Notes under the pieces: generated by a model | Seen by the model: the letters and a program-made list of their open reading frames with translations, nothing else | What the model was told of the DNA's origin: nothing | Database searches by the model: none | Shown: positions 2,492 through 34,908 of the stretch, one piece after another | How the letters are laid out: the number at the start of each line of letters is the position of its first letter | Numbering within the stretch: position 1 is the stretch's first letter | Virus record (IMG/VR): IMGVR_UViG_3300023220_000433 | Location: 1 to 35,660 of that record | DNA from: a virus | Direction: 5' to 3' (one strand) | Length of the DNA stretch: 35,660 nt | Position numbers and translations under genes: made by a program

Positions 2492-2599
2492 ATGACCGCA
2501 TTTATAATAGGTTTTGTGGCTGGCCTATCCACAAGGTTTGTCACGCTGAAGCAATCGGCTGAGTTTGTAGGTAAACTATTAAAGAGGATGAAGAGATGA
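2492..2599 (+). CDS. small hydrophobic/basic peptide (35 aa)
   Basis: A 35-residue peptide, MTAFIIGFVAGLSTRF followed by a basic helix ending KLLKRMKR. AGGGAGAG precedes the ATG, and the stop overlaps the next start as ATGA, which supports translation. The short hydrophobic stretch with a strongly basic tail suggests a membrane-associated peptide. Function unknown. Confidence 0.55.
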   Translation: MTAFIIGFVAGLSTRFVTLKQSAEFVGKLLKRMKR

Positions 2600-3507
2600 C
2601 TGAACAGAAGATAACTTTTACGTTGGATGAAATCAAAAAACATAATCTATGTGTAAGCGGATATAAAAAGCTTATCAAGAATCTTGGGGGTATGACGAAG
2701 TACGGAAAACACACACCCATAACTATTGACCAAATTTATGAAAGTAATGGATACGATGACACTTTATGGTGTTTGAGAACTACCCCTGAAGAAACCCATT
2801 ATCTATGGAGGCACTTTGCAGTCGATGCGGCCAGTGCTGTTAAGCATTTAATGAAAGATGAAAGAAGTTTAACAGCTTTAAAGGTGGCTAGATTATATGC
2901 ACAGGGCCGATCCTCAGATGCTGCTTGGACTGCTGCTAGTGATGCTGCTAGTGATGCTGCTAGGGATGCTGCTAGTGATGCTGCTTGGGATGCTGCTAGG
3001 GATGCTGCTTGGGATGCTGCTTGGGATGCTGCTAGTGATGCTGCTAGGGCTGCTGCTAGGGATGCTGCTAGTGATGCTGCTAGGGCTGCTGCTAGGGATG
3101 CTGCTAGTGATGCTGCTAGTGATGCTGCTAGGGATGCTGCTAGGGATGCTGCTTGGGATGCTGCTTGGACTGCTGCTAGGGATGCTGCTTGGGATGCTGC
3201 TTGGGATGCTGCTAGTGATGCTGCTAGGGCTGCTGCTAGTGATGCTGCTAGTGATGCTGCTAGTGATGCTGCTTGGGATGCTGCTAGGGATGCTGCTTGG
3301 GATGCTGCTTGGGCTGCTGCTAGGGCTGCTGCTAGGGATGCTGCTAGTGATGCTGCTTGGGATGCTGCTAGGGATGCTGCTTGGGATGCTGCTAGGGATG
3401 CGCAAATACGCCTATTATCTGATTATTGTAGGCTAGGTAAACGTCCATCAAGAAGTGAAGAGAGGTTGGTTGAATACATCAAAGAAGAGATGGCTAAAAA
3501 TGACTGA
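2596..3507 (+). CDS. DAAx-repeat alanine-rich protein
   Basis: A 303-residue protein in three parts. Residues 1-107 form an ordinary globular domain (TFTLDEIKKHNLCVSGYKK...). Residues 108-267 are 40 tandem tetrapeptides of the form DAAW, DAAS, DAAR, AAAR or TAAx. A short C-terminal domain (QIRLLSDYCRLGKRPSRSEE) follows. The repeat should form a long Ala-rich helix with Asp, Arg, Ser and Trp at a regular four-residue spacing, so a rod, spacer or self-associating fibre is plausible. Alanine-rich DAA repeats are known in uncharacterised phage proteins. The gene overlaps its neighbours by ATGA and by an AATGACTGA junction. Biological role unknown. Confidence 0.8.
   Translation: MTEQKITFTLDEIKKHNLCVSGYKKLIKNLGGMTKYGKHTPITIDQIYESNGYDDTLWCLRTTPEETHYLWRHFAVDAASAVKHLMKDERSLTALKVARLYAQGRSSDAAWTAASDAASDAARDAASDAAWDAARDAAWDAAWDAASDAARAAARDAASDAARAAARDAASDAASDAARDAARDAAWDAAWTAARDAAWDAAWDAASDAARAAASDAASDAASDAAWDAARDAAWDAAWAAARAAARDAASDAAWDAARDAAWDAARDAQIRLLSDYCRLGKRPSRSEERLVEYIKEEMAKND
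2917..3396 (+). repeat. 40 x 12-bp tandem repeat in coding sequence
   Basis: Forty consecutive 12-base units of consensus GATGCTGCTNNN. The last codon is TGG, AGT or AGG, and the first is GAT, occasionally GCT or ACT. The unit is a multiple of three, so copy-number changes keep the frame. This also explains why long open frames appear on both strands here. The units are imperfect, so assemblers may still have miscounted them. Confidence 0.97.
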
Positions 3508-7052: not shown

Positions 7053-7652
7053 ATGTATCCAAAAACAGAATGTGTAGGAAAAACCTACGGAAGACTAACG
7101 GTCTTATCTGAGTGTCCTAAAATATCAGGGGAACACAGAAAGGTGTTATGCCTATGCCGATGCGGAAATGAGGCTTTAGTACAAACCTCTAATCTTTTCT
7201 ACGGCTCAACAAAAAGTTGCGGCTGTTTACAAAGAGAAATTAGCACGACGCATGGAAAAAGAAAAACACCTGAATACAAGGCATGGGTTCACATGAAGGG
7301 GAGATGTCTCAACAAAAACGATCAAGACTATAAATATTATGGTGGTAGAGGGATTTCTATATGTGATGAATGGAAAGAATCGGTTGAGAACTTTATAGCG
7401 GATATGGGCAACAGACCATCATCTAATCATTCCATCGACAGAATTGACGTAAATGGAAACTACAACAAAGATAATTGTAAATGGTCTACTCGCCAAGAAC
7501 AGGCATTAAATAAACGTAATAACAGACTTGTCTCCTATAGAGATGAGCAACTTCCTTTAGCAGAGGCTTGTCGAAGAGCAGGTATAAACTACAGCACGGC
7601 ATTTAGTCGTTTATGGAGAGGAAAAGATTGGGCAGGCAAAGCCGCTTTATAA
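7053..7652 (+). CDS. homing-endonuclease-like protein, copy 2
   Basis: A 199-residue paralog of the gene at 1877-2479, sharing more than half of its residues by eye. It has the same cysteine stretch (CLCRCGN ... KSCGC), the same core (YGGRGISIC, SIDRIDVNGNYNKDNCKW) and the same C-terminal helices (LPLAEACRRAGINYSTAFSRL). The DNA is near-identical around the SIDRIDVNG codons. AAAAGGAGAA precedes the ATG. Together the two copies bracket about 4.6 kb of accessory genes, which they may have helped to move or retain (inference). It is followed by about 90 bp with no gene I can support. Confidence 0.75.
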   Translation: MYPKTECVGKTYGRLTVLSECPKISGEHRKVLCLCRCGNEALVQTSNLFYGSTKSCGCLQREISTTHGKRKTPEYKAWVHMKGRCLNKNDQDYKYYGGRGISICDEWKESVENFIADMGNRPSSNHSIDRIDVNGNYNKDNCKWSTRQEQALNKRNNRLVSYRDEQLPLAEACRRAGINYSTAFSRLWRGKDWAGKAAL

Positions 7653-21650: not shown

Positions 21651-22793
21651 TTAGCTTGTGTGTGGGCCAGCGAAAGTGGCAATAACGGTAGAACCGAAAT
21701 CTTCACTATCAAACTGTAGTTTCTTAACGCCATAGATCATCCTAGCTTCAATACCACGGTCATAGTCGTAGTCTTTGAGTTGCTCTTTAAAGATCAATGG
21801 AACGTTCCCACCGGTTTCTTTAAGGTCTTCTAGGGCACCACTAAAGCGAGATGCGAAAGAAGCAGCATTCCGGCCACAAAGTATGGCACGCCGCACGTTA
21901 GGAAGAGCAGCAGAAGTTGCGCTGCTTTGACCAAAGGCCACACGGAATGAAGGGATAATGTTCACATTGGCGTATTTACCAACTGGTTGAACACTATATG
22001 CGCTAGCTGTCATGATAGGGTTACCATCAATCTTGCCACCTTCCATTGCTGACAGATAGTTAATGTACCACTGGATTTTACCAGAAGTGTCACGTTTCAA
22101 GTCTGTTAGCTGTTCAAAAGAAATGAACAAGTCAAACTCTTGACCTTCCAAAGGTTCCACATGTGGATATGTACGCCCGAGTTGCTCAACAGAAGCATCA
22201 ATCAAATCAAGTGCAAAAGTATCGCTTGAAGTAAGTGATTCATCGTTGGCAGCCCCACCAGCACGGATAACGCGGTTAGCGGTAGGTGCATTAATAGTAT
22301 TAAGCCCTTGCACGATAGTACGGTCAGCCCCTGAATAAACAGTGGTATCAACAGTAATCGTGGTGGAGTTAACACCTGCGAGTTGGTTAAAAACTGATGC
22401 ATCTAAACGTGAAGCGTGCCAGTCAGGCAATTGCTTACGAGCGCGTTGCTGGAATGGTACCAGAGTACGAGCTTGTTCAATTGTTTCATCGTTTGGTGAA
22501 AGTACAGCGTGACGAACCACGTTGTATTGCATTGAGAAAGCCTGTAAGTCCAGCGCTTCTTCGTTACCAGTTAGTGTGCCACCTTCAGTTTTACCAATTC
22601 CAGTAAGAATCCCAGTAAAGTTAAAAGTAACGTCATCACCTGCTCTGGCGTTGTCTAGCTCTTCAGCACGCATAATGGTGCCTCGGCTAGCCATACGACC
22701 AAAAGAGGTATTTTTCATCATATCGACAAATCCCTCAACCGACCATAGTTTGACGGTTAAAGCATTTCCCGTAAGCATTGATGTCTCAGCCAT
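21651..22793 (-). CDS. major capsid protein (DUF4043 / N4-gp56-like)
   Basis: A 380-residue protein matching the DUF4043-type capsid family: N-terminal ETSMLTGNALTVKLWSVEGFVDMMKNTSF, then a GDDVTFNF..TG segment, QYNVVRHAV (about 89-97), and RRAILCGRNAASFASRFSGA toward the C-terminus. It should adopt the HK97 fold and build the shell. CGGAGG lies at ideal spacing before the ATG. A terminator and a candidate promoter lie upstream, which may allow high expression separate from the scaffold. Confidence 0.85.
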   Translation of the reverse strand: MAETSMLTGNALTVKLWSVEGFVDMMKNTSFGRMASRGTIMRAEELDNARAGDDVTFNFTGILTGIGKTEGGTLTGNEEALDLQAFSMQYNVVRHAVLSPNDETIEQARTLVPFQQRARKQLPDWHASRLDASVFNQLAGVNSTTITVDTTVYSGADRTIVQGLNTINAPTANRVIRAGGAANDESLTSSDTFALDLIDASVEQLGRTYPHVEPLEGQEFDLFISFEQLTDLKRDTSGKIQWYINYLSAMEGGKIDGNPIMTASAYSVQPVGKYANVNIIPSFRVAFGQSSATSAALPNVRRAILCGRNAASFASRFSGALEDLKETGGNVPLIFKEQLKDYDYDRGIEARMIYGVKKLQFDSEDFGSTVIATFAGPHTS

Positions 22794-22988: not shown

Positions 22989-23939
22989 CTATCCAACATG
23001 TTTATGGGCTTTCTTAAACATCTGCTTGGTATCATTCTTCATAATATCATCCATGCTCATATTAAAGATAGCGTCAGGACTAGCCCCATCATTATTGGTA
23101 GCTGGACTACCTCCAATGAGGGATGTATTTTTCTTCATATTCTTTTTAAGGTTTTGCAAGTTAGGAGCCTTTTTAGACTTGGGATCAGATTTAACTGGCT
23201 CATAACCATGAGCTTTAGCCATCTCCACAATTGTCTCAGCTGGGTTTCTACCTGTTGGGGCCAGTTGACGGAACAATTCTAGCTTCTGGTTTTCAAGATG
23301 AGAGTTGATCTGTGCCATTGTAGCAGTTGGATACTGTAATTGGATAAGCTGTGTTTCCCTCTGTTTTACAAAGGCTAGGGCAGCATCATAATCATTATCA
23401 GGGTTAGACTGTTTAAACTGTCCCTCAAGTATCTGAACGCCTCTAAGCTCACCCATGGTCTTTTGAGCTTGTTGAGTTTCCTCAGTTGTTTTGCTTAATC
23501 CTTCCACCTGTTGTCTAAGCTGTCTGATCTGCCAATCTTTATGCTCATCGGGGTCAAGGTCTTGGTCGGGTTCAGGGTCACGATTTTCTTGTGGAGCTGC
23601 TGGCTGTTGAGCCATTTGCATAGCTTCGTTAAAACCTTGCTGCTTAGCCTGAGCTTCCTTAAGTTTAGCGAGCTCCTCTTTAGCTTCCTTAACCTCATGG
23701 CGCATTCTAGCCCATGCAGTCTTTTCTTTTTTAGGAGGGGTGTCATCTGACTCTTCTTCCTGCTCTTCTTCTTCCTCTGGCTCAGCCTCTTCCTGTACTT
23801 CTTCATCGGCTGGAGTTACTTCTTCTTCAGCCTGATCAACAACCTCTTCAGATTGAGCTTGGGCTTCATCATCATTTTGTGATTCTGCAATTTGACGTTT
23901 TAAATCTTCTCGAACTTCTTCTAAGTTTCCTAATACCAT
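22989..23939 (-). CDS. capsid scaffolding protein
   Basis: A 316-residue highly charged, helical protein. An acidic stretch (about residues 23-68, many Glu and Asp) is followed by coiled-coil helices (ARMRHEVKEAKEELAKLKEAQ) and a basic C-terminal region (SKKAPNLQNLKKNMKKN). Position between portal and capsid genes, composition and length all fit a phage scaffolding protein. It would direct capsid assembly and then leave the head. AGGAGAA precedes the ATG. The intergenic palindrome at 23958-23971 lies just upstream. Confidence 0.75.
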   Translation of the reverse strand: MVLGNLEEVREDLKRQIAESQNDDEAQAQSEEVVDQAEEEVTPADEEVQEEAEPEEEEEQEEESDDTPPKKEKTAWARMRHEVKEAKEELAKLKEAQAKQQGFNEAMQMAQQPAAPQENRDPEPDQDLDPDEHKDWQIRQLRQQVEGLSKTTEETQQAQKTMGELRGVQILEGQFKQSNPDNDYDAALAFVKQRETQLIQLQYPTATMAQINSHLENQKLELFRQLAPTGRNPAETIVEMAKAHGYEPVKSDPKSKKAPNLQNLKKNMKKNTSLIGGSPATNNDGASPDAIFNMSMDDIMKNDTKQMFKKAHKHVG

Positions 23940-23957
23940 GATATTTCTCCTGTTTAG

Positions 23958-23971
23958 GCCCTGGGCAGGGC
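23958..23971. repeat. intercistronic palindrome, copy 1
   Basis: GCCCTGGGCAGGGC, a nearly perfect palindrome between the portal and scaffold genes. The same core CCCTGGGCAGGG recurs at 29592-29605. It could be a hairpin that protects or terminates mRNA, or a protein-binding site. Confidence 0.7.
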
Positions 23972-24007
23972 TATATAGTTACGTTAACGTTGCTTGCATT
24001 TACTTGT

Positions 24008-26047
24008 CTAAGTAAAGCATTCTCCTCCGCCGTTTGTTGAGCTTCTGTGAGAATCTTTTTTGTTCTGAGCATCAGCAATATCTTTAGCGGCCCTAGCTTT
24101 TTGTGCTTCAATAACAGAGGCTTGTAGTTCAGATTCAACCTGTTGCTGCTGCTGAGCGGCTTGTGCTTGAGCCTGGGCCTGCTGTTGATCAGGTTGTAAA
24201 GCTTCTTTAAGTTGTTGCTTGTCTTTCTCTTTAACATTAGGCGCATAGTTAATAACAATAGGAAGTATTCTCCTAGCTGCTGCTGGATCAATCTGTCCTA
24301 TGTCCCTACTGAATGAAGACAGGAAGTTAAATGTCTCCTGCTTCTGCGTGGCAGACGTTGGAGCTTCACCAATATCAATATCGTATTCGTCAGTCATTCT
24401 ATCTTCTGTAAGCTCTTCGTATCTGTCAGCACCTTGTGGGCCTATAATCTTCACAAGTCTACCAGTAGAGTTCTCAGCCAGCATTCTCATGAATGTAACC
24501 ATTAAGCGAGCATGTTCAATTTGATATAAGGCAATGGCGTCGAAGTAAGTGGCCAGGGTAGCCAAGACCTGGTTAATACGTTGGGCTTCCAGCAATGCTG
24601 ATACCTGGCTATTAGCGCTGGCGCCTAAGAACTCTCTGTTAATGCCACTTGTTTCGCTAAGGGAACGGTCAGCAATCTGATAGATGTTTTCAAAGCCTGA
24701 AGGCAAAGCGCCTGTGGCTTTAGGTTGAATCTTACCGCCTGATAAAGCACCATCCGCTACCTTAATGGCCGCTCTGGTAGTAGCGTATTGGCCTTCAAAG
24801 CGCGCAGGGTCTTCAACAGCGCTCTCCTCATACATAACACCACCTTTAGAGTTGGAGGCGATAACATAAAGAATCTCTGTAAAGGCTTTGTTGGCATAAC
24901 GCGCAGGGTCTTGCATCCCTTTAACCATGCCATACCAACTACGGTCACGGGGGTTATAGTTAGCTGTTTTAAACTTAATGGTGAATCCCTGCTGATCAGG
25001 GGACTTGAACTTTTTGAATACTGTGGTGCCAGAAAGAACAGACGTATAATAAACCTTCCTTTGAAACTCTTGGTACTCAAGATCAATGCCAAACCGCTCA
25101 AATAACACATCTAAGTCACGCTTAATGGTGGGCGTCATTACAAGATATTCATCTAAAGGATCAAACTCAAAGATGTCCTCTACCTCTTCAGGGGTAGATA
25201 CATTCGCCCTGTTGCCCTTCATGGCTATCATCATGTTGGCAAGAATGCTTACAGTAGCGGGGTCTTCTATTTCAAATAGGGGATTCTTAGCGCGGAAATA
25301 CTTATCTAGACTCCACCATTGGTAGTAATATACCTCAACAAGATCTTCTTCTGCCTGTCCGCCACCGCTAATCTTGTCGTATTCTCCACCTACAGGATTA
25401 TAAACAAAGTTGGAACTCTCATCTCCTGTGTATCTCTGGAAGTCTTCTTCCTTGCTTCCTTTAAAACGCTTCAAAGCTTCCTGAAGGCCAAAAGCTTTTC
25501 TACGCCACGTCCAACGGGCATCTAATATGTTCGGTTCCTGGGCTTGAGGATCCCAGCCAACGTCATTATAACGGATGACTTCAGACTGAACCTCTCCATC
25601 AGGATTGCTCTCGTAAGTGATATTAGTATCAACAGCCCCATAACCAGTAACAAGCATCTCACGATCCTGGCGAGACTCCAGCTGATCCATGTTAGCGTTC
25701 TTTCTTGCATAATCAGATATGCCATTCATATAAATAGAAAGCTCTTGCTGTGAAGGGTTCTCTATAAGTCTGGCTTGATAATCTGGCTTACGTCTTAGCT
25801 GAACCATAAACCCACAAACAGCATCCACAAAAGGCTTTACCTTATTGAAAACAACAGCGCTTCTTTGGCCTTTATCCTCAACAGTGGCAGAGTAGTGCAT
25901 TTCATCACCAGCGTGGAAAGCGTGTGCCTCTCGTGCATCCCTGTATTGTCCTCCCAAGCCAGAATACGTAATATTCTTGTGCTTGGTCCATTGGTCTATT
26001 AATTTTGAATCTTTGGGTAGGGGCATCTTACCAGGTACTAATATCAT
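24008..26047 (-). CDS. portal protein, P22-like (C-terminus apparently frameshifted)
   Basis: A 679-residue portal of the P22 type: N-terminal DSKLIDQWTKHKNITYSG, VKPFVDAVCGFMVQLRRKPD, the central SETSGINREFLGASANSQVSALLEAQRINQVLATLATYFDAIALYQ region (about 470-515), and a Gln-rich C-terminal helix. Twelve subunits form the DNA channel. It overlaps the large terminase gene by 20 bases. After DIADAQNKK the frame ends in an odd DSHRSSTNGGGECFT, while the +1 frame continues smoothly (KILTEAQQTAEENALLRQVN) to a stop at 23971. An extra A in the six-A run at 24056-24061 explains this; the intact product would be about 690 residues. Confidence 0.85.
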   Translation of the reverse strand: MILVPGKMPLPKDSKLIDQWTKHKNITYSGLGGQYRDAREAHAFHAGDEMHYSATVEDKGQRSAVVFNKVKPFVDAVCGFMVQLRRKPDYQARLIENPSQQELSIYMNGISDYARKNANMDQLESRQDREMLVTGYGAVDTNITYESNPDGEVQSEVIRYNDVGWDPQAQEPNILDARWTWRRKAFGLQEALKRFKGSKEEDFQRYTGDESSNFVYNPVGGEYDKISGGGQAEEDLVEVYYYQWWSLDKYFRAKNPLFEIEDPATVSILANMMIAMKGNRANVSTPEEVEDIFEFDPLDEYLVMTPTIKRDLDVLFERFGIDLEYQEFQRKVYYTSVLSGTTVFKKFKSPDQQGFTIKFKTANYNPRDRSWYGMVKGMQDPARYANKAFTEILYVIASNSKGGVMYEESAVEDPARFEGQYATTRAAIKVADGALSGGKIQPKATGALPSGFENIYQIADRSLSETSGINREFLGASANSQVSALLEAQRINQVLATLATYFDAIALYQIEHARLMVTFMRMLAENSTGRLVKIIGPQGADRYEELTEDRMTDEYDIDIGEAPTSATQKQETFNFLSSFSRDIGQIDPAAARRILPIVINYAPNVKEKDKQQLKEALQPDQQQAQAQAQAAQQQQQVESELQASVIEAQKARAAKDIADAQNKKDSHRSSTNGGGECFT

Positions 26048-27575
26048 CTTCTCTGAAGTTATTTAACTCATCTCGATAACTTCCTCTGACACGGTTTAGA
26101 ACCATCTCAACTTTCGGGAAGCTGGCGTAGACATTCTCATCCAATACACGGGCAAGGGCGTCTAACATATCGTCATGCCGACCTACGGGGAAGGTCATCA
26201 TCTCTTCAATAAACTTGTCTACCAATTCAATGGTATCCCCCTCAATAGTAGTATAGAGTATCTTCCGTGGCAAGTACATCCTTCCAGCTTCGAAAATAGG
26301 AATCAATCTTCTGATTCTATCCTCCTTCTTCATGATCCCACCAACCTCTATAACTTGGAATCTATAGTTAATATCAGCCTGGGCTTTTCTTAAATAATAA
26401 GAGTCTGTCATCATCCCATACTTCTCACAAGCTACTTTAGGTGGCTTCAGACTTAGCTTATTCCATTTCTTATGCAGAGTTATTAGCTTTTGGATTCTCT
26501 CAGTTGGGTTTAATCTGTCCCTGACTATATCCAATAAGTAGTAGTTGTTGTCATTAGACATCCCTATTACCATCATGGCCGTAAAGTCTGGGTTGTCAGA
26601 TTGTTTCTTCTTCTTCTCGTTAGCAGGATCATACAGAATGTATATGTTCATGCCCTGGGGTGTGAAGTTCTTGGAGAGGTTATTGTAATAAGAAATCCAG
26701 CTCTTCTTGAACTCTCCCCCACCCACAGGTGCTGGGTTCTGTTGATATTGCCCAGCATAGCCATAAGGCCCAAGGTCAGAGAGCTTCTGATCTAATACCT
26801 CTCTGGTAAGCCTTCCAGGATTTAAAAGCTCCCCATCGTCTAAACGCCATTTCCTATTGTTAACCTCAATAAATGTCTTCTTGTTGAATTCAGCAGGCAA
26901 GATAAGGTTATGCCAATCTCCACGCTCTATCAGGTGACCAGCAGGATCATTCTCATGTAACCTCTGCATCACTAAAACCACCTTGGACTGACCAGGCTTG
27001 TTCTGACGTGTGAGGAAGGATTGATCTATCCAGGCATTAGTTTTGTTCCTAATCGTTTCAGAGAGAGCCTCATCAGCCTTTACGGGGTCATCCAGAATAA
27101 GATAGTCAGCCCCCATACCAAGAATAGAGCCACCAACAGAGGTAGCCTTCCTAAACCCTCTCTGCGTGGTCTGGAACATATCCTTCTGGTTTTGATCTCT
27201 TGCAATCTTTGTATCTGGAAAAGCCTGTTTGAATATCTCACTTTCTATGACAAGACGTGTGTCAGTACTGTGGCGGGTGGCTAACTCATGGGAATAGGAG
27301 GCCGCTATGATCTGTCTGGTGGGGTCTCTGCCTAGAAGCCAGGCTGTCCAGGCTATGGTAATGCTTATGGACTTCAGCTCACGGGGAGGCATGTTAACGT
27401 TCAATCTAAGTATCTCACCCCTCTCAACAGCTTGGAGGTGCTCCACAATGCAATCAATGTGCCAGTTGCTTATGTACTCATTCCCAGGAGATACCTGATG
27501 GAATACCTGCTCAGTGAACGCTAACTGGTCATTGGCTAATATTGCTGTATATTCTTCATTGGAAGGCTTGGTCAT
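26028..27575 (-). CDS. terL: terminase large subunit
   Basis: A 515-residue packaging motor. The ATPase half has a Walker A-like PPRELKS (residues 63-69; PPRHGKS in many relatives), the C-motif region and Walker B YLILDDP (158-164). The nuclease half has ILYDPAN, then YYLLDIVRDRL, CEKYG, and GRHDDMLDALA near the C-terminus. It would cut concatemers and drive DNA into the head with TerS. The start overlaps the previous gene's stop as ATGA. Its relation to P22-like portals fits headful packaging. Confidence 0.9.
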   Translation of the reverse strand: MTKPSNEEYTAILANDQLAFTEQVFHQVSPGNEYISNWHIDCIVEHLQAVERGEILRLNVNMPPRELKSISITIAWTAWLLGRDPTRQIIAASYSHELATRHSTDTRLVIESEIFKQAFPDTKIARDQNQKDMFQTTQRGFRKATSVGGSILGMGADYLILDDPVKADEALSETIRNKTNAWIDQSFLTRQNKPGQSKVVLVMQRLHENDPAGHLIERGDWHNLILPAEFNKKTFIEVNNRKWRLDDGELLNPGRLTREVLDQKLSDLGPYGYAGQYQQNPAPVGGGEFKKSWISYYNNLSKNFTPQGMNIYILYDPANEKKKKQSDNPDFTAMMVIGMSNDNNYYLLDIVRDRLNPTERIQKLITLHKKWNKLSLKPPKVACEKYGMMTDSYYLRKAQADINYRFQVIEVGGIMKKEDRIRRLIPIFEAGRMYLPRKILYTTIEGDTIELVDKFIEEMMTFPVGRHDDMLDALARVLDENVYASFPKVEMVLNRVRGSYRDELNNFREDDISTW

Positions 27576-28301: not shown

Positions 28302-28669
28302 CTTAACCTGTTTTTTCTTAACTTTTTAATCAGACGGGAATCAGAAAAGCTTGGCTGAACTGCTGTTATAGACCTATGGCCCGTAATCCACCTGAAGAAT
28401 GATATTCTTCCTGGTGAACACCACCCTGAAGGATCACTTTCCACAAACAGCAATCGGGGGAGCTCTCCTTGAATTAAGTCCAGAACTAACATCACGTGGC
28501 ACACAACCACCTTCTTGTAATAATGCTCAGCCATCTTGGTGAAGCCGTTCTTATCCTCCATCGACCCCTTCTTGAGAAGACGAACGCTCTTATACCTATC
28601 CCATTTCAACAAGCAATGCTGGGTGCGCCACCCCTCTTTCTGAAATAAGCCATTCTTATCTATTGGCAT
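28298..28669 (-). CDS. hypothetical basic protein (123 aa)
   Basis: A 123-residue basic protein with TQHCLLKWDRYKSVRLL, a hydrophobic strand KKVVVCHVMLVLDLI, and FFRWITGHRSITAVQPSF. The start shares a base with the small terminase stop (TAATG) and the stop overlaps the next ATG (ATGA), so it is translated as part of the packaging operon. Not recognised. Confidence 0.6.
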   Translation of the reverse strand: MPIDKNGLFQKEGWRTQHCLLKWDRYKSVRLLKKGSMEDKNGFTKMAEHYYKKVVVCHVMLVLDLIQGELPRLLFVESDPSGWCSPGRISFFRWITGHRSITAVQPSFSDSRLIKKLRKNRLR

Positions 28670-29088
28670 TACTTGCTCTTATTCCTTTCCAAGAACCTCT
28701 TCACGATGCTTTCCTGATCCTTACTGATATTATTAACCACAACGATGGGCTTCTCATCCAATATGCCCGTTATTTTGGCCATATCCATGTAAGCTCCCCT
28801 TATGTTACCGGAGTCTTGTCTATTGGTGGCTATTCGCTGGGCTTTCTTCAACCCATTTATGATGTAATCCCTATCAACCTTATGATCTTTAAGGAGTTCT
28901 TCCTTTAATTCCTTAACCCTTGTTGCCACCTTGTGGTTGGACAATATCTTAGATGCCATCTCCCAAATGGACTTATCTTTTTCAGCTTCAGTAGAGTACC
29001 CAGCCTGCCTATAAGCCTCTGAGGCATTGTCTAGTTGTATATAGAGATTGGCGAAGGCTTCCTGCTTAATGGTAAGCTTGTTAGCCAT
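28669..29088 (-). CDS. terS: terminase small subunit (Terminase_2 type)
   Basis: A 139-residue protein with the Terminase_2 pattern: LTIKQEAFANLYIQLDNASEAYRQAGYS (about 5-32, helix-turn-helix), ASKILSNHKVATRVKELKEELL (45-66), then DRDYIINGLKKAQRIA. It would recognise the packaging start and load TerL, forming a ring in the process. It lies about 1.1 kb before terL, with four small genes and a noncoding segment between them. Confidence 0.85.
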   Translation of the reverse strand: MANKLTIKQEAFANLYIQLDNASEAYRQAGYSTEAEKDKSIWEMASKILSNHKVATRVKELKEELLKDHKVDRDYIINGLKKAQRIATNRQDSGNIRGAYMDMAKITGILDEKPIVVVNNISKDQESIVKRFLERNKSK

Positions 29089-33458: not shown

Positions 33459-33863
33459 TCATGTTCTCGCTCCCTGTAAGGCATTTTTCATCTCGGTTTT
33501 TCCCACTTGCCAGAAATGGCAAAACTTCATGGCTTTTTTTCTCAAATCAACAACAGTGGGTTGGGCTGACTCATTGTCGCGCCAATATTTAGCTGTTTTT
33601 TGTACAGCCCATAAGGGGAATTCCTCTAAACTGTCGCTGTAAGAATAAATCTTTGCACTTCTCTCTGAGGGCTCCAAGGGAAGTCCGAAATTATAACTGG
33701 AAAGCAATGCTATGATTGTTGTCTCTATTGCCTTCGCATCAGTGGAGGGCTTTAAAACCTCCTCAAAAATAGGCAACAATTCAGCCATATTCTGCCTATC
33801 CTCATCAGTTGGACTGAAGCTTGGTTGTTGAAATCCAACACTAGCCGAACGGCTTAAAGCCAT
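33459..33863 (-). CDS. replication-block protein (134 aa)
   Basis: A 134-residue helical protein: AELLPIFEEVLKPS, TIIALLSSYNFGLPL, and DSLEEFPLWAVQKTAKYWRDNESAQPTVVDLRKKA (about 79-113). The 'FP.WAV..A...W......PT...LR' helix pair also occurs in the gene at 32499-33215, suggesting a shared module. I chose the ATG at 33863 because a longer frame would overlap the initiator-like gene by over 200 bases. Possibly helps load host helicase; unproven. Confidence 0.55.
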   Translation of the reverse strand: MALSRSASVGFQQPSFSPTDEDRQNMAELLPIFEEVLKPSTDAKAIETTIIALLSSYNFGLPLEPSERSAKIYSYSDSLEEFPLWAVQKTAKYWRDNESAQPTVVDLRKKAMKFCHFWQVGKTEMKNALQGART

Positions 33864-34908
33864 CACCACGTCGAAAATCTGATACTTGACGGATAGTTTC
33901 ATCAAGGCTCGGACGTGACTTCCCACTTCCTCCATGTTGCTGAGTGTTATCTCGTGAATGCCAATTTTGGAAAGAGCGGTACCACCCGACTCTTGCATCT
34001 GGTTTTGAGGTGAAGTGGTTGTAGAAACCTGTAAGCATTTGTCGAGTGTTTTCATCGTCTGTTCCTTTGTTGGTTGAGTAGTCGTAGCATTTCTGAGCTT
34101 CTTCGCTCATGAAAGTGATGTATCCGTAATCGTCTGCCGTTATCCAATCTTCTGGCATGACATATTTTTTAGGTTTGGTTTTTTTAGGGGAAGGGACAAC
34201 GACGTTAGTCGATAAATCCTCAATCAACACATCCTCATTCAATAAAGGGGATTCCTCATTCCTTAAGAGGGAATCAGGGGGATAAGAAGCGTTTTCCTTA
34301 ACACAAGCTTGATCCAAGCTTAAGTCAAGCATGACCCGTCCTTGATCCAAGCTTAAGTCATGGTTGACTTTCCTGTTTCCTTTCAACACGTTACAGCCAC
34401 GGCATAAAACTTGCAAATTGTCTTCTGTGCTGTTCCCACCCTTAGAAACAGGTTCTATATGATCAATGTGTAGATCGTCTTGTGAACCGCAGTAATTGCA
34501 TTCCCTTCCATCCCTATCAAAAATATTGGACCTAATCTTTTCATTTAACGGGAAATATCCATCACAAACACTATTTGTATATTCAGGTGGAGATGGGAAT
34601 ATGCTGGCAACCTCTTTATGGTGAGGATTCTGATGCTTCGCAAAGTTTGATATTTGGATATATTTTTTGTCAACTACAGAATAAATAAGAATAAATTCCC
34701 TTTCCCGTAAACATTCCAATAAATCTATTACATCACAATCATCATAGACAAGAACTTGAGCTTTAATTTTCCTGGGCCTGTACTCTATTCTGCCTTCGCG
34801 GTCTGCAATGCACCACAATCCTATAAATAAAAGCCTGCCAAGAGGATCTATTTCTGCTAAAAGATCGTTATCAAAAAAAGACGGCTTAATGTTTCTCGCT
34901 CGTGCCAT
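33841..34908 (-). CDS. replication-initiator-like protein with inserted HNH module
   Basis: A 355-residue protein in three parts. Residues 1-105 match phage replication initiators (ARARNIKPSFFDNDLLAEID, GRLLFIGLWCIADREGRIEYRPRKIKAQV, winged-helix-like). Residues about 122-182 are a complete HNH nuclease: C137xxC140, HIDHIEP with His150, NLQVLC, C169xxC172 and NVLKGNRK. The rest has a DnaT/DnaD-like C-terminus (FYNHFTSKPDARVGWYRSFQNWHSR). It would bind the origin and recruit the host helicase. The nuclease may nick or may be a domesticated homing insert. AGGAGC precedes the ATG. Confidence 0.75.
   Translation of the reverse strand: MARARNIKPSFFDNDLLAEIDPLGRLLFIGLWCIADREGRIEYRPRKIKAQVLVYDDCDVIDLLECLREREFILIYSVVDKKYIQISNFAKHQNPHHKEVASIFPSPPEYTNSVCDGYFPLNEKIRSNIFDRDGRECNYCGSQDDLHIDHIEPVSKGGNSTEDNLQVLCRGCNVLKGNRKVNHDLSLDQGRVMLDLSLDQACVKENASYPPDSLLRNEESPLLNEDVLIEDLSTNVVVPSPKKTKPKKYVMPEDWITADDYGYITFMSEEAQKCYDYSTNKGTDDENTRQMLTGFYNHFTSKPDARVGWYRSFQNWHSRDNTQQHGGSGKSRPSLDETIRQVSDFRRGDGFKPFG

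Follow-up and report, generated by a model that had tools for sequence, protein, structure and literature searches.

The locus described here raises the question of why a phage portal gene should leave its conserved reading frame near its end, with the C-terminal tail of its clade present in the +1 frame and not in the portal's own. It lies in a window (the whole stretch of DNA that was analysed, a single virus record of 35,660 bases) that carries a podovirus-type structural module on its minus strand:

28669-29088, minus strand: small terminase (Terminase_2), within the structural module
26028-27575, minus strand: terminase large subunit, from Pfam/PHROG profile searches
24008-26026, minus strand: portal gene as read in the window, 672 aa (MPLP...GGGECFT), P22_portal family
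23947-23951, minus strand: AGGAG, read in the sequence as the ribosome site of the gene after the portal, whose ATG starts at 23939
22989-23939, minus strand: gene after the portal, 316 aa, intact, matching 32 ORFs of relatives (best E=9.1e-57)
21651-22793, minus strand: major capsid protein, from Pfam/PHROG profile searches

The order terminase large subunit, portal, unnamed gene and major capsid protein is the same in two relatives (L002 and L006). The unnamed gene has no match in Pfam or PHROG, and its position between the portal and the major capsid protein, as in relatives, suggests a putative scaffold. Frame damage is not a general property of the contig, since the remaining structural genes, as far as they are comparable with those of relatives, are complete and undisrupted. 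Antisense plus-strand frames that matched relatives across the structural genes were rejected as shadows of the coding strand, and scans of the window for tRNAs and against Rfam were both empty.

A portal gene with two reading frames

The portal protein matches PF16510 with an E-value of 2.1e-64 (218.5 bits for a curated cut-off of 26.1) and PHROG 156 with an E-value of 5.1e-64. This family of P22-like portals, which includes P22 gp1 and the portals of Sf6, GP4 and KHP30, is matched over residues 28-654, and profile matches to solved structures include the portals of KHP30 (7wmp) and GP4 (8jov). Upstream of the portal start, a further in-frame ATG is found at 26047. The end of the gene was analysed as separate core and tail pieces, without mending the frame, and comprises the following elements:

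24055-24064, minus strand: junction of 10 nucleotides, AACAAAAAAG, between IADAQ (last zero-frame homology) and ILTE (first +1-frame homology), from the sequence and its relatives
24056-24061, minus strand: run of six A's on the coding strand (six T's on the plus strand), where both frames of homology meet
24008-24055, minus strand: zero-frame portal tail DSHRSSTNGGGECFT and its stop, with no counterpart in relatives
23971-24054, minus strand: +1-frame tail ILTEAQQTAEENALLRQVNASNVNVTI and its stop, the conserved C-terminus of the portal family according to tail profile, shuffles and codon usage

In the zero frame, the gene reads ...DIADAQNKKDSHRSSTNGGGECFT up to a stop at 24008-24010, the foreign tail beginning after ...KDIADAQNKK. 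In the +1 frame, (KK)ILTEAQQTAEENALLRQVNASNVNVTI is followed by a stop at 23971-23973, 19 bases ahead of the AGGAG of the next gene. On the coding strand, the break takes the form ...GCT CAG AAC AAA AAA G..., and its six A's are the sole A/T run of at least six within the portal gene. The codon-usage score of the +1 tail is 2.3 bits, compared with -22.0 and -18.4 bits in the other two frames; as a reference, the genes of the window have a mean of 8.3 bits with an SD of 5.2.

Relatives and the conserved portal C-terminus

Plain searches of phage and plasmid records returned remote portals only, and an alignment built from these was used for a first scan of IMG/VR. The alignment-based scans of this collection yielded portal relatives that are 35-63% identical to the window portal, the nearest at 63, 60, 56 and 55%; rescanning with a tighter alignment recovered the same nearest set plus a few more portals. 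Single-protein scans of viral and genome contig collections found no close portal relative, and neither an exact-DNA scan across the junction nor a DNA-level phage search with the window gave any match. Genome contigs, when scanned with the alignment, gave portals of lower identity (mostly 24-34%), which the tail analysis does not include.

The collected relatives also have features of their own. P22-like portal relatives are present in many Bartonella genomes (L099-L165), several of which have more than one copy, and B. raoultii has four such loci on different contigs. Two other P22-like portals (L120 and L143) come from contigs assigned to archaeal MAGs (Candidatus Nitrosotalea, Thaumarchaeota), which are more likely to be misbinned phage contigs.

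Among 35 distinct portal ORFs, 32 end, in their own frame, in T.K.LEEA.Q...EN.......(V)NVTI or a variant of it, as exemplified by ...NINVTI (L008), ...AVNVTI (L009) and ...SVNVTI (L016), and none of the collected relatives has the Ser/Gly/Asn tail. A profile of these homologous tails, built without the window, gave a single significant match, the +1 tail, when compared with the window's 1,864 stop-to-stop frames (E=4.5e-7; next, 0.57). This tail is aligned from the first to the last profile position, its stop coinciding with the profile end. It scored 30.3 bits, whereas the zero-frame tail reached 4.6 and none of the 4,935 scored shuffles exceeded 14.9. On account of the tails of relatives, the profile match, the shuffles and the gene-like codon usage, the +1 tail is, as judged from sequence comparison, the ancestral C-terminus of the portal. 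These results uphold several proposals of the initial annotation: that the portal frame turns into a Ser/Gly/Asn tail and stops at 24008 (both coordinates and translation), and that the +1 frame, ending at 23971 before the ribosome site of the next gene, is the true C-terminus. Homologous portals ending in the Ser/Gly/Asn tail, which would have refuted that annotation, did not occur among the relatives, which end in the +1 type of tail.

Could the Ser/Gly/Asn tail nevertheless be an evolved, functional C-terminus, the similarity in the +1 frame being residual or accidental? The zero frame is open behind a full-length portal core, and P22 is known to tolerate truncation of its portal tail. However, an accidental similarity is excluded by the profile match and the shuffle scores, no relative displays such a tail, and an abandoned C-terminus should decay, of which codon usage gives no sign. 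We consider this possibility most improbable.

Structural models are consistent with an interrupted helix. The AlphaFold model of the 63% identical relative (L009; mean pLDDT 68) has one helix spanning residues 610-682 and, after it, a short end without helical structure in which VNVTI lies. Foldseek matches this model best to P22-type portals (Pan3, P22 and Sf6), with E-values down to 4.5e-17, and its long C-terminal helix resembles the P22 barrel. Unlike these P22-like portals, the window portal has its helix cut at the junction and the conserved terminus out of frame. In its own low-confidence model (pLDDT 49.5), the last helix ends at residue 659, at the junction, which would be compatible with a shortened barrel and adds little weight.

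Spacing across the break and the missing sequence

Since the last zero-frame and the first +1-frame homologies flank the A-run so closely, the comparison with relatives places the break within 10 nucleotides. Aligning core and tail each on its own, we measured the interval between the ADAQ and ILTE positions in 32 relatives; L174, L175 and L178, three portal ORFs whose tails did not align, were excluded from the count. Most relatives (22) have an interval of 15 residues; six have 22 residues, three have 8 and one (L008) has 19. Three alignment methods were concordant on the raw lengths, prior to the adjustment for tail length. Hence 31 of the 32 relatives fall on a ladder of 1+7n residues, a count that relies on alignments of a low-complexity helix and leaves L008 (19) off the ladder. 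Such steps of seven would fit a coiled coil, with the barrel helix changing its length by whole heptads. With 10 nucleotides instead of 24, 45 or 66, the window portal is off this ladder and short of its values by 14, 35 or 56 nucleotides. Each of these losses, from an interval of 8, 15 or 22 residues respectively, is sufficient alone to give the observed change of frame.

One of the excluded ORFs deserves a separate mention: in L178 (2088-3757), the portal match leaves the usual frame of the C-terminus and its in-frame stretch is 185 aa, so that it may be another broken, mis-framed or mis-assembled copy.

The initial annotation had located the frame break at the six-A run and attributed it to one extra A. 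The location was right, but a single additional base does not account for the whole break. A one-base indel or a homopolymer miscall at this position would place the joining of the frames exactly where it is found, at a usual site of one-base errors or replication slips, and would imply a portal helix that is by nature shorter than that of any known relative. A one-base change leaves 3 residues where 32 out of 32 relatives have 8 to 22, off the 1+7n spacing, and a second, in-frame loss would be needed. Besides, there are 13 other A/T runs of at least six in the genes of the window, and no comparable frame break occurs in the structural genes compared with relatives. A one-base event as the sole cause is thus unlikely.

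The 10 nucleotides of the window stand against 8 to 22 residues in every one of the 32 relatives, so sequence is missing. The explanation that we regard as probable is that the C-terminal barrel helix and the conserved terminus of a P22-like portal were put out of frame when a stretch of sequence whose length is not a multiple of three was lost. The loss would have occurred within the helix-coding region and would most likely span 56 or 35 nucleotides, 14 being possible. The larger value is favoured since the N-side of the break in the window (ARAAKDIADAQ-NK) is most like the 22-residue class (ARAQKDLADAQ-LK in L016 and ARATKDLADAQ-VK in L022). The breakpoint would fall in A-rich lysine codons, and the six-A run is then probably the scar of a short deletion, parent sequence and interval length being derived from relatives that are at most 63% identical. 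A joint made of A's is natural because lysine codons flank the gap on both sides: 23 of the 32 relatives have K or R as the residue immediately preceding the tail, and the window has AAG there. One deletion, and not two events, presumably made the break, although an unusually short ancestral helix combined with a separate one-base indel could produce the same outcome. The gene as written would then encode a 672-aa portal with 15 unrelated terminal residues, the old tail remaining untranslated, and no process appears to restore the portal frame.

Recoding and transcript slippage

The presence of an undamaged tail in the new frame, with coding-like codons and a stop at the ribosome site of the next gene, could alternatively reflect a shift of frame at AAC AAA AAA G, through slippage of the RNA polymerase or programmed frameshifting (+1 or -2) on the ribosome, resulting in a minority tailed portal beside the short form. 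Shortened P22 portals function, so two portal forms could coexist (PMC4992974). However, the tail is in an uninterrupted frame in relatives, which means that neither a shift site nor an out-of-frame extension is conserved. Nine A/T is the run length at which selection against slippage is evident in a large share of bacterial genomes; this length differs between organisms, and slippage sites with shorter runs are possible (PMC1088944). The run in the window has only six. Slippage-dependent genes such as Thermus dnaX and those of IS elements with A9 runs (PMC1088944) resemble the window portal in having an A-run within the coding sequence and a meaningful sequence in another frame downstream, but they differ from it in that its run has six A's and not nine, is unconserved in relatives and lies where junction codons are missing.

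The sequence context also disfavours recoding. The zero-frame phase is AAC AAA AAA G and not the heptamer A AAA AAG. Downstream RNA folding is ordinary (z=-0.69), with 44 of 200 shuffles folding as well, although some recoding sites work without a stimulatory RNA structure. Moreover, a fused product would have three or four junction residues, off the 1+7n heptad spacing. Taken together, we hold recoding as the origin of this arrangement to be very unlikely and slippage in the window portal to be improbable; the two portal forms initially attributed to transcript slippage do not agree with the frame of relatives, the short run, the RNA folding or the lost spacing. A mixed scenario, in which slippage at the A-run after a recent deletion yields a few tailed subunits and a 12-subunit ring combines short and long barrels, has equally little probability as a description of the present portal. 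The titles and abstracts of the literature on portal frameshifting report no programmed frameshift in a portal.

Real mutation or assembly artefact

If an out-of-frame loss has taken place, it may be a real deletion or an artefact of library preparation or assembly, and we judge the two about equally probable. A real deletion could be viable by analogy with P22, since the last 50 residues of its gp1 (676-725) are dispensable, as revealed by the dif1 mutant (PMC4992974). In addition, part of the P22 portal barrel appears disordered in virions (PMC4992974), and the portal barrel is largely unfolded when DNA is absent (PMC5290284). In both P22 dif1 and the window portal, the distal C-terminal barrel region is lost and the core is kept. 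However, dif1 is a studied viable mutant, whereas the truncation in the window is deduced from one metagenomic contig and adds 15 foreign residues. The fact that relatives have kept the tail implies natural selection against losing it. As the tail is undecayed, the break would be recent in the lineage or would exist in the assembly only.

Other features of the window

Away from the structural module, a gene on the plus strand (2596-3507), which has no Pfam match, contains at 2917-3401 about 40 copies of a 12-base repeat with the consensus GATGCTGCTAGG (89% matches). The array encodes Ala/Asp tetrapeptides (DAAW/DAAR/DAAS), and another plus frame and a minus frame are also open across it. Two similar proteins of about 200 aa are encoded at 1877-2479 and 7053-7652 (plus strand); both start with ...C.GKTYGRL.VLSEC..., share ...NHSIDRIDVNGNY... 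and have no Pfam match. They are apparently duplicates within one phage contig and, by eye, resemble homing-endonuclease-type genes. Finally, residues 137-179 of a 355-aa protein (33841-34908, minus strand) form an embedded HNH endonuclease domain; outside this domain the protein looks replication-type by eye, and the domain could be an insertion.

Conclusion

To conclude, this locus is a P22-like portal, from a clade of uncultured phages, whose barrel-helix region has probably suffered an out-of-frame loss, either in the phage or in its assembly only; such a break is ordinary in kind. It calls for caution, since a frame break at a homopolymer on one contig can mimic recoding, and relatives and spacing are what reveal the missing sequence. 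The last ~27 residues, conserved up to their (V)NVTI-like end in 32 divergent portals, form a possible docking segment for an unnamed partner. For the family, our comparison brings forward a previously unremarked conserved C-terminal motif in a clade of uncultured P22-like portals, in which the length of the barrel helix varies by seven-residue steps.
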